Below are positions 55,353 to 62,159 of a DNA stretch of 64,000 nt, piece after piece. A program made the translations under genes and the position numbers. Origin of the DNA: Alphaproteobacteria bacterium (lineage in GTDB: Bacteria > Pseudomonadota > Alphaproteobacteria > Caulobacterales > Maricaulaceae); assembly GCA_024742735.1 (NCBI GenBank), contig JANSXV010000006.1, forward strand, positions 75,213 through 139,212. Reading direction: 5' to 3'. Position 1 is the first letter of the stretch, and every line of letters starts with the position of its first letter. The notes beneath the pieces are model-generated. The model saw only the letters and a program-made list of their open reading frames with translations. It did not search any database and was not told where the DNA came from.

Positions 55353-56132
55353 ATGATCCTGCAGGTCGACCAGCTGGCGAAGCGGTTTCCCGGCGGGGTC
55401 AAAGCGGTCGCCGATGTCAGCTTCACCGCCGGTGCAGGCGAACTGGTCGCGCTGGTCGGGGAATCCGGCTGCGGCAAGACCACGACGCTGAAATGCATCA
55501 ACCGGCTCCATGAGCCGAGCGCCGGGCGTGTGCTCATCGAGGATGAGGACATACAGGGCCTTGATCCAGTCGCCCAGCGCCGGCGCATCGGCTGGGTGAT
55601 GCAGGGCGACGGCCTGTTTCCACACATGAGCGCTGCGGCGAATATCGCCGTCGGCCCCAGGCTTCTGGGTTGGGAGGCCGGGCGGATTGCGGCGCGGGTC
55701 GACGAGCTGCTGGAGCTGGTCCGTCTGGACCCGGCCATCTATCGCGATCGCCTGCCGCGCCAGCTCTCGGGCGGCCAGCGCCAGCGCATCGGCGTGGCGC
55801 GCGCGCTCGCGGCCGGGCCTCATCTGGTGCTCATGGACGAGCCGTTCGGCGCGCTCGACCCCATCACCCGCGACGGGCTGCGCGCCGACTTCTCCGAGCT
55901 GCAGGCGAGGCTGAAATTCGCCGCGGTCATGGTCACCCATGACATGGCCGAAGCCCTGCTCATGGCTGACCGGATCGCGGTCATGGAGGCCGGGCGCATC
56001 CTGCAATACGACACGCCATCCGCCCTGCTGGCCGCACCGGCGGGCGAGACCGTGGCGCGCATGCTGGAAAGCCCGCTGCGCGAAGCCGAACGGGTCGGCG
56101 CCCTGAAAGCGGGAGCGGCGCAAAATGGGTGA
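55353..56132 (+). CDS. Opu/EgtU-type ABC importer ATP-binding subunit
   Basis: 259 residues. Walker A GESGCGKTT, Q-loop VMQGDGLFPHM, signature LSGGQRQRIG, Walker B LVLMDEPFGALD and H-loop VTHDMAEALLMAD. Shorter than OpuAA or ProV: no C-terminal CBS domains, so osmotic gating through CBS is absent. It overlaps the permease gene by eight bases. Confidence 0.94.
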   Translation: MILQVDQLAKRFPGGVKAVADVSFTAGAGELVALVGESGCGKTTTLKCINRLHEPSAGRVLIEDEDIQGLDPVAQRRRIGWVMQGDGLFPHMSAAANIAVGPRLLGWEAGRIAARVDELLELVRLDPAIYRDRLPRQLSGGQRQRIGVARALAAGPHLVLMDEPFGALDPITRDGLRADFSELQARLKFAAVMVTHDMAEALLMADRIAVMEAGRILQYDTPSALLAAPAGETVARMLESPLREAERVGALKAGAAQNG

Positions 56133-57675
56133 GACGCTGGGCCCCCTGATCGAACGCCTGCCGGCTTTCCTGGGCGGGCATCTCCAGCTGTCAGTCGCCG
56201 CGATCCTGACCGCTTTGGCCGTGTCCCTCCCGCTGGGGATCGCCGCGGCCCGCAATCCGAAGATCGCTGCGCCGGCCCTGACCGTCGCCAGCGTGATGCA
56301 GACCATTCCCGCCCTGGCGCTGTTGGCTCTCATGGTGCCGCTTCTAGGCGGGACGATCGGCTTTGCGCCGGCTTTCATCGCCCTGACCCTCTACGGTGTT
56401 CTGCCGGTTCTCAGAAACACGATCGTCGGCCTTCAGGGCGTGGACCGGACCGTGCGAGAGGCGGCGAGGGGGATCGGGATGAGCCCGGTCCAGTCCCTCG
56501 TTCAGGTCGAGCTGCCGCTGGCCGCTCCGACCATAATCGCCGGGGTGCGCACCGCCACGGTCTGGGTCGTCGGCGCGGCGACGCTGGCGACTCCGGTGGG
56601 CGCGACAAGCCTTGGAAACTACATCTTCTCCGGGCTCCAGACCCGGTCATGGGACATGGTGATATTCGGCTGCGTGTGCTCGGCCGGGCTGGCCATCCTC
56701 CTCGATCAGCTGATCCGCGCGCTTCATGTCTCTGCTGAAGCGCGCAAGCCGCTCCAGGCCGTTCTGGCCGGCTGCGCGGTGGTGGTGATCCCGGCTGCTG
56801 CGATGTCGGGAGCGGCGCTTTATGTGTCAGACGAGCGCTCCGGTGCATTCGCGGCGGGGTCTGTTGATGCGGGCTTTGGCGATGATGAAGTGATCGTCGG
56901 CGCGAAAGCCTTTACCGAACAATATATTATCGCCGAGGTGCTGGAGGCCCGCCTGGAAAATGCGGGCGCCGAAGTCCGCCGGCGGGACAATCTGGGCTCC
57001 ACCGTGGTTTTCGATGCTTTGGTGTCCGGGGAGATCGATGTCTATGTCGATTACACCGGCACCTTATGGAACAACGTGCTCCAGCGCGGCGCGCCTGTGG
57101 ACCGTCATCTCATGTACGCCGAGGTGAGTTCCCACCTCCTTTCGCAATATGGCGTGCTGACGCTGGGCCGGCTGGGCTTCGAGAACGCCTACGGCATCGC
57201 TGTGCGCCGCGATTTCGCCGAGGTCAACAGTCTCACCAGCATAGCCGACCTCGCCCGGGTGGAGGATTTGTCCATCGGCGCGGACCCGGAATTCTTTGTG
57301 CGCCCGGAGTGGGAGCGGGTGCGCGACGGGTACCAGATCACCGGCGCGGAAGAACGCTCCATGGACGCGGCCTTCATGTACGGCGCGGTGCGCGACGGCG
57401 CGGTGGACGCCATCACCGCCTACACCACGGACGGGCGTATCGACGCGTTCGACCTCGTGATCCTGGAGGACCCGCTCGGCGCGCTGCCGCCCTATGATGC
57501 GGTCCTGCTGCTCTCGCCCCAAGCTGTCCAGCGGCCCGCCATCGCCCGCGCCCTCGCGCCCCTCATCGGCGCCATAGACGCCGACCTCATGCGCCAGGCC
57601 AATGCCGTGGTGGATCTGGAAAGGCGCAGCGTGGGCGAGGGGGCGGACGTGATTTTGCAGGCGGTGGAGGATTAG
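56125..57675 (+). CDS. Fused permease and substrate-binding protein (Opu/EgtU-type)
   Basis: 516 residues. The N-terminal 220 residues are a BPD-type permease (EAA loop: EAARGIGMSPVQSLVQVELP). A seventh membrane helix at about 210-235 leads to a type II (OpuAC-like) binding domain from 250: VGAKAFTEQYIIAEVLEARL, FDALVSGEIDVYVDYTGT, AITAYTTDGRIDAFDLVILE. Such fusions import glycine betaine, choline or ergothioneine. One transcript with the ATPase makes a complete importer. The last 120 bases are repeated at 59743. Confidence 0.95.
   Translation: MGETLGPLIERLPAFLGGHLQLSVAAILTALAVSLPLGIAAARNPKIAAPALTVASVMQTIPALALLALMVPLLGGTIGFAPAFIALTLYGVLPVLRNTIVGLQGVDRTVREAARGIGMSPVQSLVQVELPLAAPTIIAGVRTATVWVVGAATLATPVGATSLGNYIFSGLQTRSWDMVIFGCVCSAGLAILLDQLIRALHVSAEARKPLQAVLAGCAVVVIPAAAMSGAALYVSDERSGAFAAGSVDAGFGDDEVIVGAKAFTEQYIIAEVLEARLENAGAEVRRRDNLGSTVVFDALVSGEIDVYVDYTGTLWNNVLQRGAPVDRHLMYAEVSSHLLSQYGVLTLGRLGFENAYGIAVRRDFAEVNSLTSIADLARVEDLSIGADPEFFVRPEWERVRDGYQITGAEERSMDAAFMYGAVRDGAVDAITAYTTDGRIDAFDLVILEDPLGALPPYDAVLLLSPQAVQRPAIARALAPLIGAIDADLMRQANAVVDLERRSVGEGADVILQAVED
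57556..57675 (+). repeat. 3' end of importer gene, copy A of a 120-bp duplication
   Basis: This stretch encodes the last 39 residues and stop of the fused importer. It matches 59743-59862 at 113 of 120 bases with no gaps. Six of seven differences are silent; the seventh changes Met to Leu. Confidence 0.95.
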
Positions 57676-57868
57676 GTAGCTCTTCGCCTGCAGGGCGCCG
57701 CGCTTCGCACCGGGGCGTCGAAATGCGCCACACCCGCGCGCCTCAGCCACAATTCAGCTTCAATTGAGGCGCTTGGTGAAGGGGAGGCGTTGCATGGCCG
57801 GGTGACCGGTGCTTGGATGACCTGAGCGGGAAGGGTTCCGCTCGAAACAGGGCTGGATTCTCACTCAC

Positions 57869-58714: not shown

Positions 58715-59637
58715 CGAAGTTCCACGCTTTCCCGGCCCGCGCCGGTTTGGCCGGCGCGGCTGCGCTCCTTGTGTCGGCGTGCGTGTCGTTGACGCCCGAT
58801 CAGGTCTACCCCATCGGATTCGTTGAGCCGGTGGACCCAGCGGTGTTGGCGGAAACGAATGATTCGGCGGCTGAGAGTGTCCGCACGGCTTCACCCGGTG
58901 AGATCCTGTTTCAGCAGCCCGTTAGCACGCTTTCGATCCTGCGTCTGGAGAACGACATCGTGACGGACGGCGATGTCAGCCTCGCCGTTCAGGCGCGCAC
59001 CGTCGAGTTTACGCGCGGCATGGGTTTCTACCCAGCGCTCAGCGTTGGAAGCCGGACCGAGCTCGCCGCCTGTTCCTACGACCGGCCCGCCACCTGGGTT
59101 CCTCGCCTGAACCCCGGCGCCAGCGCCCAGGGGAAAATCTGTTTCATCCTGAATGAACTTGATGCCGCACCGGGCGATGAAGATGACCAGATTGAGCGCG
59201 CCGAGGCGGCCCTAAGAGACGGTGAGCTGTCCTCATCGACCTTCTTCTTCGTCAGCGAGGGCGTCGGCATGGGTGTCTCCTCGCAATACCAACGCCTGGC
59301 GCGCTGGGATCCTCAGCTGACCTACCGCGTGGTCGAACCTGCCAGGTTTTCCATTGATCGCAGCCCCGCGGCCGACCCGTCCGCGCCCAGTCTTGCACTG
59401 AGATATGTCGACACCGCGCAGGGCGCGTTGATCGAGCCGGTCTATCTGATCAACGGCCAGCCCGCCGCCATCAATGGCAAGGGGCGCGTTATCAGCGCCG
59501 ACCAGACTTTCCCGACCGTGATCGAGGTCGAGGGGGCAAGGATTGAGGTTCTGGCCCTGGTGGATCGGGCCCTTGCCTACCGGGTCCTGTCCGGCCTGCC
59601 GGCAAGCAACGCCGCCGTCCTAGACCTGCCGCAATAG
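58711..59637 (+). CDS. Predicted lipoprotein B of a two-gene cassette
   Basis: 308 residues with signal GLAGAAALLVSACVSLTPDQ (lipobox VSAC). Later parts are beta-rich (AVQARTVEFTRGMGFYPALS, RLARWDPQLTYRVVEPARFS, PVYLINGQPAAINGKGRVIS). No family recognised and no similarity to lipoprotein A clear by eye apart from being a lipoprotein of the same size. The cassette lies between two copies of the importer gene's 3' end. Confidence 0.8.
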   Translation: MTKFHAFPARAGLAGAAALLVSACVSLTPDQVYPIGFVEPVDPAVLAETNDSAAESVRTASPGEILFQQPVSTLSILRLENDIVTDGDVSLAVQARTVEFTRGMGFYPALSVGSRTELAACSYDRPATWVPRLNPGASAQGKICFILNELDAAPGDEDDQIERAEAALRDGELSSSTFFFVSEGVGMGVSSQYQRLARWDPQLTYRVVEPARFSIDRSPAADPSAPSLALRYVDTAQGALIEPVYLINGQPAAINGKGRVISADQTFPTVIEVEGARIEVLALVDRALAYRVLSGLPASNAAVLDLPQ

Positions 59638-59658
59638 CCCTGTAGGCCTCCGTCAACC

Positions 59659-59742
59659 CTATCGGGGTGAGACGGTCAGGCCATAGTCGATGGAGAGCGT
59701 CAGGCTCAACGGCCCGGCGTTCTGCCATCGCACGGCGCTGTT
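59659..59742 (-). pseudogene. C-terminal remnant of an unknown gene (leftward)
   Basis: On the minus strand a frame ends AVRWQNAGPLSLTLSIDYGL then TVSPR and a stop. The alternating polar/non-polar residues resemble the last strand of a beta-barrel. Upstream of it the frame runs straight into the opposite-strand copy of the importer gene end, so it looks like a truncated gene tail. It is short, so uncertain. Confidence 0.4.
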
Positions 59743-59862
59743 GCGCCCCTCATCGGCGCCATCGACGCCGACCTCCTGCGCCAGGCCAACGCCGTGGTGG
59801 ATCTGGAGCGGCGCAGCGTGGGTGAGGGGGCGGATGTGATTTTGCAGGCGGTGGAGGATTAG
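59743..59862 (+). pseudogene. Displaced 3' end of the importer gene (copy B)
   Basis: 120 bases encoding the last 39 residues and stop of an Opu/EgtU-type fusion protein, without the rest of the gene. 94% identical to 57556-57675, with nearly all changes silent, so it derives from a functional gene rather than from a decaying copy. Confidence 0.9.
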
Positions 59863-59876
59863 GCCTTTCAGGAACA

Positions 59877-59964
59877 CCTATCCCGGCCGACCGTAGGAAG
59901 CGCCGGGACCTCGTTGAGGTCGTCGTCAGACCGGTCCCGGATCGGCTGCGCCGTCCGGGATAGG
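59877..59964. repeat. Intergenic palindromic element (dispersed repeat copy 3)
   Basis: Outer arms CCTATCCCGG / CCGGGATAGG, inner hairpin GACCTC-GTT-GAGGTC and GGGACC/GGTCCC pairing between them. On the minus strand 59960-59932 reads TCCCGGACGGCGCAG, CCG, ATCCGGGACC, almost the element after prx. Confidence 0.85.
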
Positions 59965-59968
59965 TACA

Positions 59969-60001
59969 AGAAAAAGGGCGGCCCGCTCAGGGACCGCCCT
60001 T
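59969..60001 (-). terminator. Intrinsic terminator of phoH
   Basis: AAGGGCGG / CCGCCCTT stem (59974-59981 and 59994-60001); on the minus strand it is followed by TTTTTCTTG. It lies 23 bases after the phoH stop. Confidence 0.88.
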
Positions 60002-60023
60002 CCTTGTCTTATGACGACGACCC

Positions 60024-60779
60024 CTACAGCACCGTCAGCATGCTCGCCACCAGCGGGTGGCGCACGATGTCTTCGGACTGCAGGCGCACCACGCCGATAT
60101 TGTCCACCGCTTCCAGCTTCTCCGCGATGACGCCGAGGCCGGAGAGTTCCGGCAGGAGGTCAGTCTGGGCCGGGTCGCCGGTGACCACCATGGTGGAGTT
60201 CCATCCCAGGCGCGTGAGCAGCATTTTCAGCTGGGAGTAGGTGCAGTTCTGGGCCTCGTCGACCACCACGAAAGCGTTGTTGAGCGTGCGCCCGCGCATA
60301 TAGCCGATGGGCGCGATCTCGATCAGGCCTTCGGCCATGAGCGCCTTCAGGCGCTTCGGGCTGAGGCGGTCGGACAGGGCGTCGTAGAGGGGGCGCAGGT
60401 AGGGGGCGAGCTTTTCTTCCATGGCCCCGGGCAGGAAGCCGATGGATTCGCCGGCCTCGACCGCCGGGCGGGACAGCACGATCCGGCCGACCTCGCCCTT
60501 CTCCAGCGCTTCAACGCCCTTGGCCACGGCCAGATAGGTCTTGCCGGTGCCGGCCGGGCCGAGCGCGAGGACGAGATTGTGTTCGTCGATGGCGTCCATG
60601 AGGACGGCCTGGTTCTTCGAGCGCGGCTTCACATTCTTGGTGTAGCTCTGGTCGCGCATGGGCTCCTTGTCGTCGGGAGACCAGTTGGTTCCGGGGAAGA
60701 GGGCGCGGACCTTCTCCTCCTCGTAGGCCTCGGCGTTAAAGGTTCCAGCTTGGCGACGCTTGGCGGCTCGTTTGCCCAT
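60024..60779 (-). CDS. phoH: PhoH family ATPase
   Basis: 251 residues. Walker A LALGPAGTGKTYLAVAKG, Walker B FVVVDEAQNCT, and the motifs LSRPAVEAGESIGFLPGAME and TGDPAQTDL are those of PhoH. This shorter form lacks the KH-type or PIN extension. Role: a predicted RNA-related ATPase. ATG 60779 has GGAGG five bases upstream. Its start overlaps the stop of a proline-rich small ORF (TGATG), and a terminator lies within that ORF. Confidence 0.95.
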   Translation of the reverse strand: MGKRAAKRRQAGTFNAEAYEEEKVRALFPGTNWSPDDKEPMRDQSYTKNVKPRSKNQAVLMDAIDEHNLVLALGPAGTGKTYLAVAKGVEALEKGEVGRIVLSRPAVEAGESIGFLPGAMEEKLAPYLRPLYDALSDRLSPKRLKALMAEGLIEIAPIGYMRGRTLNNAFVVVDEAQNCTYSQLKMLLTRLGWNSTMVVTGDPAQTDLLPELSGLGVIAEKLEAVDNIGVVRLQSEDIVRHPLVASMLTVL

Positions 60780-60916
60780 CAGGCCCTCCACAAGACAAGA
60801 AAAAACCCCTCACGCGGATGCGGAGGGGTCGGGGATACGGCCAAGGGGCGGAACTCCGGGGACGCCGGCGCAGCGGGCGGCGGCGGAAATCCAGAATTTG
60901 GCGGTGCGAACGGCAT
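60779..60916 (-). CDS. Proline-rich leader ORF upstream of phoH
   Basis: 45 residues from ATG 60916 with a perfect AAGGAGG nine bases upstream. 14 residues are proline (MPFAPPNSGFPPPPAAPASP, then EFRPLAVSPTPPHPREGFFL), including four in a row. The stop overlaps the phoH start (TGATG). An intrinsic terminator lies inside the last third of the ORF. The arrangement is that of a leader peptide whose translation governs read-through; no function is known. Confidence 0.6.
   Translation of the reverse strand: MPFAPPNSGFPPPPAAPASPEFRPLAVSPTPPHPREGFFLVLWRA
60800..60829 (-). terminator. Intrinsic terminator/attenuator inside the phoH leader
   Basis: On the minus strand ACCCCTC-CGC-ATCC-GCG-T-GAGGGGT, a 10-bp stem with one bulge, is followed by TTTTTTCTTGTC. 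It lies 21-50 bases before the phoH start. The 5' arm CCCCTC can alternatively pair with GAGGGG at 60934-60939, next to the leader's ribosome-binding site. Confidence 0.85.
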
Positions 60917-61116
60917 GGCGCCGCGCCTCCTTCCCCTCGACAACATGCACCTTGCGGTGCGGCGAGGCGACTCAGGCTCTTGATCCCGAATCACATCGAC
61001 AGTCTCATTCTAAGACAGTGAACGAAGCGTGAGTCCCCCCTTCTTGGAGATGTCACGAAGATGTCGCCCCGGCGCCACGCCCGCGGCGGCGCGCAGTTGC
61101 AAATGAAAGGCTATTT

Positions 61117-61638
61117 ATGACCCTTTACGCCCTGGACGGACACGAGCCGGAACTCCGCGACGGCGCCTGGGCCGCCCCGTCGTCCAGCCTTATCGGCAAG
61201 GTGCTGCTGGAAAAGAACGCCTCGGCCTGGTTCGGCGCGGTGCTGCGCGGCGATAACGAGCTGATCACCGTGGGCGAGGACTCCAACGTCCAGGACGGTA
61301 CGGTCATGCACACCGATATGGGCTTTCCCCTGGTGCTGGGGCGCGGCGTGACCGTGGGTCACAACGCCATGCTCCACGGCTGCACCGTCGGGGATTACTC
61401 GCTCGTGGGGATCGGCGCGACGATCCTGAACGGCGCCAGGATCGGCAAGCACTGCATCATCGGCGCGCACGCCCTGATCACCGAAGGCAAGGAGATCCCT
61501 GACGGCTCGGTGGTGATGGGATCGCCGGGCAAGGTGGTCAAACAGATCCAACCCGGGGTGGACGAGATGCTGAAAGCCAGCGCCGATCACTATGTGGAGA
61601 ACGCAAGGCGCTATGCGGCGGGGCTGAAGGCGGTTTAG
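61117..61638 (+). CDS. Gamma-carbonic-anhydrase-like hexapeptide protein (YrdA/PaaY type)
   Basis: 173 residues, left-handed beta-helix. [20 protein letters not shown], then [20 protein letters not shown] and [10 protein letters not shown] contain the conserved Arg/Asp/Gln and the metal-binding histidines of the gamma-class family. Activity in the YrdA branch is often low or unknown. GAAAGG precedes the ATG. Confidence 0.94.
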
Positions 61639-62159
61639 TCCCGCCGGCCCCACAGGTCACGGATGCGTTCGTCGGCGTCGCGGCCCAGATTGAACCAGGC
61701 GGAGCGGTCGCGGCTGGCGTCGACGACCAACAGCCTGTCTTCCCGGCCCAGCAGATGGCTCAGCTCGTTGCGCAGATGGGCCGCGCTGGCCGCGCCGCGC
61801 AGGATCCAGACGCCGGGTGTGATGCGCTCCACCTCGCCGAATTCCGGCAGCGCAGCTTCGAAGGCCGCGCGATGATCAGCGTGCAGATCGGCTGCGACGA
61901 TGAAGTTGGCCGTGCGCGCGTCGGCGGGCAGGGGACGCTTTTCGTGCGGCGCCTTGCGGGCCTCATCCAGCCAGGCCTTGAGCTGGGGAATGTCGGTGGC
62001 GGACGCAAAACCGCTTTCGCGATTGTCCGACACCGATGAGTGCGGCGCCACGCGGCCTTCGCCCACGAAGGCGCGCATCTGGGCGCCCGTGTAGGGCCCG
62101 TAGACCCGTCCTTCGACTTTTACAAACCAGGTCATGGCGATTCCGTCGTCACGCGGCAT
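61635..62159 (-). CDS. GYF_2 (DUF4339) domain protein
   Basis: 174 residues. The N-terminal [20 protein letters not shown] (GYF_2 pattern: W...G..yGP) is followed by an alpha/beta part with no known fold to me. I start at ATG 62159 because GGGGAG lies eight bases upstream; the ATG at 62135 (MTWFVK) is an alternative. It ends in a four-base overlap with the opposite gene. Confidence 0.85.

Follow-up and report, generated by a model that had tools for sequence, protein, structure and literature searches.

A leader reading frame threaded through an intrinsic terminator points to a pyrBI-type attenuator upstream of short phoH genes in Alphaproteobacteria

In an Oceanicaulis-like bacterium, the gene for a short PhoH protein is preceded by a leader reading frame that passes through an intrinsic terminator and ends on the phoH start codon. 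As this layout is kept in related bacteria, phoH is probably switched by how near ribosomes trail RNA polymerase, and we propose, with moderate confidence, that the leader works in cis to attenuate transcription in the manner of pyrBI. With a frame that crosses the terminator, the leader resembles pyrBI in principle more closely than mgtA, the Salmonella system to which a first-pass annotation of the same DNA had likened it: a short leader frame with proline codons does recall mgtA, but here the frame extends across the terminator and no conserved alternative fold accompanies it. If the leader does read the coupling of translation to transcription, it would provide a direct link from ribosome performance to phoH.

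The leader frame and its terminator

The window, a stretch of 64,000 nucleotides, comes from an Oceanicaulis-like genome whose PhoH is 94% and 92% identical to those of Oceanicaulis sp. MMSF_3324 and HTCC2633, the closest named relatives. Its phoH gene (60024..60779, minus strand, as are all leader features below) encodes a short paralogue of 251 amino acids that matches Pfam PF02562 (E=1.1e-81, 273.7 bits against a cut-off of 27); elsewhere in the genome, a different contig has a second PhoH match within an open frame of greater length. Between phoH and its divergent neighbour, which encodes a hexapeptide-repeat protein (61117..61638), we find a probable -10 region, a GATTCG element, the Shine-Dalgarno sequence AAGGAGG, an open reading frame (ORF) of 45 codons, a hairpin with a run of six T, the Shine-Dalgarno sequence of phoH itself and the overlap TGATG.

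The leader ORF (60779..60916, 45 codons plus TGA) begins with an ATG at 60916, 9 bases after AAGGAGG (60926..60932), and reads MPFAPPNSGFPPPPAAPASPEFRPLAVSPTPPHPREGFFLVLWRA*, with 14 prolines in 45 codons, four of them consecutive; the first-pass annotation had read these features and counts correctly. Its stop codon TGA (60781..60779) overlaps the ATG of phoH (60779..60777) within TGATG (60777..60781), again as annotated, and the phoH Shine-Dalgarno GGAGG (60785..60789) lies within the final leader codons (W-R-A). The hairpin, CCCCTC-N11-GAGGGG (60806..60828), begins 88 nt downstream of the leader ATG and runs into the T6 tract (60800..60805). An intrinsic terminator with six T had been placed in the last third of the leader, and there it is (60828..60800), conserved at the same place in relatives.

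To what extent is this layout a property of the gene rather than of one genome? We assembled a first set of 110 loci (L001-L110), mostly of the same order and including some MAGs without firm assignment, 21 short-PhoH loci from other orders and 58 loci from further same-order genomes; 170 of these 189 oriented loci, with distinct and sufficiently long upstream regions, were kept, and long-paralogue loci (L132-L138, n=7) were left out of the counts. Terminators were sought within 130 nt of phoH, with loops of up to 12 bases (a generic terminator scan missed the hairpin of the phoH leader because its loops were limited to 8 bases), and expectations were derived from dinucleotide shuffles. Note that the loci are related, so that counts are not independent, and that all expectations given here come from shuffles made in this analysis.

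A first count over 126 unique regions (105 from the first set, 21 from other orders) places a terminator upstream of phoH in 88 of the 105 (7.9 expected) and in 10 of the 21 (1.3 expected), and in 0 of the 126 loci for two control stretches within phoH. Across all unique regions upstream of short-PhoH genes, 132/170 have a terminator and 38/170 are without one by our own criteria. Hairpin sequences vary from group to group. Covariation was assessed on 15 distinct Brevundimonas-type hairpins: 97.6% of stem cells are paired, and 5 of 11 pairs vary in both partners; their covariation score was reached by 0/500 shuffles and the signal was lost when the partner was slid. In folding of four groups, the terminator prevails at equilibrium in three (mean pair probabilities 0.95-0.98) and less so in the fourth (0.80, minimum 0.00). 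Of 11 terminator-like sites found by scanning both strands of the 64-kb window, the phoH site alone has an ORF with a Shine-Dalgarno match running across it and stopping where another ORF, 100 codons or longer, begins. Predicted folding of 60779-61010 by itself is unremarkable (z -1.55).

The leader frame is retained along with the terminator in most loci. A Shine-Dalgarno match of at least 4 together with a leader start is present in 97 of the 132 terminator loci, and the best such ORF passes through the hairpin in 89/97 and reaches the phoH start in 80/97, against 33.3/69.8 and 31.0/69.8, respectively, in upstream-shuffled sequence; the top ORF ends before the hairpin in 8/97. The first-pass annotation had named, as an outcome that would count against it, homologues that keep the terminator but not the ORF: in loci with such a start the frame crosses the hairpin in the proportion just given, and no start was found automatically in the remaining 35/132. 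Without the Shine-Dalgarno requirement the excess of spanning ORFs is modest (77 versus 54.1 expected), and we therefore rest no argument on it.

We analysed 113 leaders, of which 28 had their starts set by hand (that of L148 one codon too early); some automatic starts, for example that of L041, are doubtful. The leader stop falls at -6..+5 of the phoH start in 96/113 leaders and elsewhere in 17/113, taking the form of TGATG or TGAnATG, of ATGA, or of a TAA just within phoH (ATGGGTAA or ATGGCTAA). In L008 and L098 the leader frame continues beyond the phoH start, out of frame. A group that is possibly Caulobacter, in the family to which Brevundimonas also belongs, has leaders started by TTG or GTG, many of them with EPPG or EPPR; these leaders have the terminator and stop on the phoH start or close to it. 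L192 and L193 have a leader-like frame across the terminator with TPPPG, but none of ATG, GTG and TTG stands at the normal spacing from GGAG; by eye, the candidate start is ATC, or a TTG immediately after GGAG.

Is the frame itself constrained? In-frame pN/pS is 0.62, 0.39, 0.66 and 0.51 in 12 Oceanicaulis, 6 Maricaulis, and 18 and 4 Brevundimonas sequences (14, 6, 97 and 6 pairs, with no more than 6 behind either the Maricaulis or the second Brevundimonas value; Oceanicaulis pairs are below 35% divergence). In the other two frames it ranges over 0.91-1.98 across the four groups, with 1.41 and 1.21 in Oceanicaulis. Stops occur in 0/40 sequences in the leader frame versus 41/80 sequence-frames otherwise, a zero that arises by construction because the groups were picked after the ORF had been seen and 12 loci were left out; the pN/pS contrast is less affected by this post hoc choice. 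Those 12 loci, in which the frame seemed different or which were set aside, are Oceanicaulis L015 and L092, Maricaulis L014, L016, L017 and L020, and Brevundimonas L032, L034, L038, L067, L068 and L076; several of them have a spanning ORF in the 170-region count. As judged from these alignments, the contrast between frames shows purifying selection on the leader frame. The attenuator-like arrangement in the first-pass annotation is supported, its leader ORF being genuine and linked to phoH.

Proline motifs and a proposed switch

The leader had been called proline-rich, a description that survives in part. Ahead of the hairpin, prolines make up a mean fraction of 0.171 of the 113 leaders, where dinucleotide shuffles give 0.159; proline richness alone is therefore unremarkable, and we set it aside. 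What is enriched is the clustering of prolines into stall-type motifs: PP[PGDN] is found in 57/113 leaders (17.4 expected), PPP in 33/113 (9.9 expected), PPG in 35 (5.3 expected) and PP in 76/113 (58.1 expected). Most of the 37/113 leaders without PP belong to Brevundimonas, where leaders mostly have SDPGG or similar at a comparable place ([DE]PG in 29 versus 1.6 expected). The 12/12 aligned Oceanicaulis leaders have two PP pairs. That proline codons matter, as the first-pass annotation supposed, is plausible if they act as PPx stall motifs, but mostly does not extend to Brevundimonas.

In the window, the PPPP at codons 11-14 (60875..60886), a candidate EF-P-dependent stall, lies about 44-50 nt before the hairpin, and across leaders the nearest PP upstream of the hairpin is mostly about 39-72 nt away, with a few closer. 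At that distance, a stalled ribosome would leave the hairpin free.

Given that the frame threads the terminator, the simplest device would be ribosome masking, as in pyrBI. RNA polymerase would begin near 61000 and transcribe the leader, and a ribosome starting at 60916 would follow. If it is close behind, it would cover the 5' arm of the hairpin, the terminator would stay unfolded and transcription would proceed into phoH; the ribosome would end on TGATG, the site of the phoH translation start, allowing translational coupling. If it is late, because it started late or stalled at a PPx motif some 40-70 nt before the hairpin, the terminator would form and, were termination to follow in vivo, the transcript would be limited to a leader RNA some 200 nt long. 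phoH would then read ribosome-polymerase spacing as its physiological signal, with a slow polymerase turning it ON and slow translation at PPx turning it OFF. The first-pass annotation had proposed that pausing at proline codons lets transcription into phoH; for a terminator enclosed in the ORF the opposite sign is expected, and a PPx stall should raise termination.

Background on pyrBI bears on both the mechanism and its sign. Sensing of UTP by pyrBI depends on a U-rich stretch at which polymerase pauses; by eye, no U-rich tract is obvious before the hairpin in the window. The pyrBI system concerns another gene, lineage and signal, and the PPx motif ahead of the hairpin is a feature of phoH. 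The layout is nonetheless similar: the E. coli pyrBI terminator sits inside a leader gene (pyrL) of about 135 bp, compared with 138 for the phoH leader, and the advancing ribosome is described as suppressing termination (PMC4824070, PMC5021804). Also similar is a PPPPPP-pyrL-mCherry reporter made for a study of EF-P, in which polyproline precedes an intrinsic terminator within one translated frame, as at phoH; the phoH leader, if our reading is true, would be its natural counterpart. Although the reporter is artificial and was assayed in E. coli, it predicts the sign proposed here, from stall to termination: without EF-P, expression is reported to fall 26-fold, or 32-fold with a fast polymerase, compared with 1.3-fold in the fast-polymerase strain with EF-P, a drop from which the authors infer increased termination (PMC5021804). 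In E. coli, ribosomes are further reported to mask a terminator poorly when it lies in the opening 100 bp of an ORF, a difficulty that pyrBI overcomes by polymerase pausing (PMC4824070). The phoH hairpin, 88 nt after the leader ATG, begins in this range, and that weighs against our reading. The default state of phoH may, on that account, be termination, relieved when polymerase is slow, which would fit induction of phoH on starvation.

Competing explanations

Could the terminator be a constant brake or the source of a leader sRNA, with the ORF serving coupling only and regulation residing at the promoter (through GATTCG/GANTC, NtrC or CtrA)? We consider this unlikely, though it survives better than the alternatives that follow. 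On the promoter side, TTAGAAT (61007..61013), an A/T-rich hexamer in the same place in the genus alignment by eye, is a probable -10 region; a generic promoter scan of the window lists no promoter at the leader. A GATTCG element (60987..60992) with a GANTC site, close to where the leader RNA presumably begins, is conserved in relatives: GATTCG occurs at -300..-120 of phoH in 129/169 loci, against 19.3 expected from shuffles, a conservation strong enough to speak for control at the promoter. GANTC is the CcrM methylation motif. GATTCG is also seen upstream of phoH in some loci outside the order. In the window, GTGATTCGGG and CCTGAGTCGC could form a 5' hairpin (60967..60994) whose partner arm, by eye, seems to covary in the genus alignment; in Oceanicaulis and Brevundimonas, GATTCG seemingly supplies one arm, the 5' one, of a hairpin whose other arm varies (also by eye). 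Promoter control also accords with the listing of a Caulobacter PhoH gene among CtrA targets (PMC3073932) and with binding of NtrC and GapR at its promoter (PMC10274813), but the authors of the latter study call NtrC control not simple, direct repression. Loci in which the ORF is fused to phoH, 13/16 of one clade being without a terminator by our own criteria, likewise suit a constant brake with coupling. Coupling alone, however, calls for no ORF that crosses a conserved intrinsic terminator, and for no PPx motifs ahead of that terminator.

Classical attenuation, in which pausing at prolines favours an antiterminator and turns phoH on, as in the Salmonella mgtA and mgtCBR leaders, we regard as improbable. 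Like phoH, mgtL/mgtA and mgtP/mgtCBR have short leader ORFs with proline codons read by ribosome speed, and the enrichment of PPx motifs would suit such a device. The 17-codon mgtP ORF, with three consecutive proline codons, uses alternative stem-loops (PMC3641672), and mgtA uses Rho, stalling turning the gene on (PMC3641672, PMC5021804); at phoH, no conserved alternative fold accompanies the ORF, which passes through the terminator with no stop before it. The alternative pairing that the first-pass annotation had proposed, between GAGGGG beside the leader Shine-Dalgarno (60938..60933) and the CCCCTC of the terminator, does exist in the window, where the 5' arm pairs upstream more strongly than in any other member of the group (0.57), but it is found in 1/13 loci of the Oceanicaulis group. 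A search for an antiterminator based on pair probabilities, covering four groups of 13, 15, 13 and 11 loci, gave none that stood clearly above shuffles: mean upstream pairing of the 5' arm, observed versus shuffled upstream sequence, is 0.22/0.38, 0.32/0.47, 0.52/0.62 and 0.59/0.58, that is, below shuffles in three groups and high but equal to shuffles in the fourth, possibly Caulobacter. By these comparisons a conserved antiterminator is not supported at the phoH leader, as befits a pyrBI-type device, which needs none. As a separate candidate, we considered pairing of a Shine-Dalgarno sequence (of phoH or of the leader) with the 5' arm of the terminator; by eye it is possible in Oceanicaulis, because CCTCC resembles an anti-Shine-Dalgarno sequence, and not in Brevundimonas, and we rejected it.

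Rho-dependent attenuation, in which C-rich proline codons would constitute a Rho-loading site that translation masks or exposes, seems highly improbable. Proline codons are indeed C-rich, overlap of rut sites with PPX has been noted (PMC5021804), and there is an alphaproteobacterial precedent in the Sinorhizobium meliloti DUF1127 uORF, whose translation sets premature termination (PMC12218461). The DUF1127 authors nevertheless report no intrinsic terminator and a probably Rho-dependent process, with a uORF that ends before the termination region (PMC12218461), whereas phoH has a conserved intrinsic hairpin and T-run close by.

Chance, meaning an accidental overlap in G+C-rich DNA where extended open frames abound, is scarcely credible: the excess without a Shine-Dalgarno demand is modest and the ATGACC and ATGGGTAA starts carry their own out-of-frame stops, but codon-level selection in four groups, the Shine-Dalgarno-based excess and the retention of the ORF in lower-GC loci (a 73-codon ORF across the terminator, with PPP or PPPP, in L194 and L195 at GC 0.51 and 0.47, and an ORF across the terminator in L128, from another order, at GC 0.39; window 0.67) indicate that the layout is not due to chance.

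Caulobacter, lineage variants and flanking sequence

A connection with published work comes from Caulobacter. Carbon starvation is reported to raise the PhoH-family gene CC_2644 44.56-fold (PMC3073932). CCNA_02727, which is apparently that gene under another tag, is reported to rise 10-fold in an ntrC deletion, returning to normal with glutamine (PMC10274813, a preprint). According to a figure legend of the preprint, CCNA_02727 forms one operon with a small hypothetical gene, CCNA_03973, an arrangement of small gene and PhoH-family gene like that seen here (PMC10274813). CCNA_03973 is probably the phoH leader ORF, by inference from this arrangement, and our reading would suggest a function for this annotated gene; the equivalence of the pair to leader ORF and short PhoH is likewise inferred, and the available text of the preprint describes no attenuator. 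Locus tags of the CCNA_039xx series include small CDSs apparently derived from Ribo-seq, among them CCNA_03934, the ileS leader CDS, and CCNA_03904, 03915, 03919 and 03965, apparently four new small CDSs tagged in that study (PMC4117421). PhoH, with no statement in the available text as to which, is reported to be lowered by copper stress in Caulobacter (PMC8224329). PhoH proteins more generally are described as widespread ATPases tied to RNA metabolism (PMC10274813). Our search of open-licence papers turned up no description of a phoH attenuator, in keeping with the first-pass annotation, which knew of no such control.

Two kinds of lineage variant stand out. Eight Brevundimonas loci (L036, L038, L040, L042, L052, L056, L064, L065) have an insertion of 36-39 nt between terminator and phoH, several of these insertions containing a copy that resembles the terminator segment; the leader frame and its ATGA overlap are kept in 7/8, and L038 has an upstream stop in that frame. 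In 16 loci, from MAGs and others (L021, L023, L024, L025, L027, L028, L031, L033, L045, L047, L080, L154, L155, L177, L178, L181), leader and PhoH are fused: a GTG start (TTG in L028) after GTGGGGGA leads in frame into PhoH, giving an extension of 46-55 residues that mostly follows the pattern VG.RR...PP.GA...FFD.P..GR...RKE.SMAKR. Of the 16, three (L025, L045 and L155) have a terminator by our own criteria. A loose search for in-frame PhoH extensions lists 26/170 loci; others among them, such as L029, L048, L062, L068, L110 and L123, are probably accidental open frames, and the Phenylobacterium-type loci L041, L051 and L174 may be a second fused group.

We offer a broader generalization tentatively: Alphaproteobacteria may carry a conserved coupling sensor in which a leader ORF threads a terminator, a polyproline (EF-P-dependent) speed bump lies about 40-70 nt before it and phoH output reports ribosome-polymerase distance, with one lineage having fused the leader to the PhoH N-terminus and mostly lost the terminator.

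Rfam yields no leader or riboswitch family at gathering score in 59500-61700 of the window, and nothing at gathering score in 12 relatives. A weak match to the ar35 sRNA (59967..60098, minus strand, 23.1 bits, cut-off 45) covers the 3' end of phoH together with the repeat that lies downstream, and relative L059 has a weak antisense match to Ysr251 (23.3 against a cut-off of 100). By the 3' end of phoH, 140 bases at 59724..59863 (plus strand) match 57538..57676 at 91% identity. The latter interval is where a permease/substrate-binding gene (56125..57675) has its 3' end, and the segment by phoH reads as a partial duplication or remnant. In some relatives, a similar 3' end lies convergent, after phoH.
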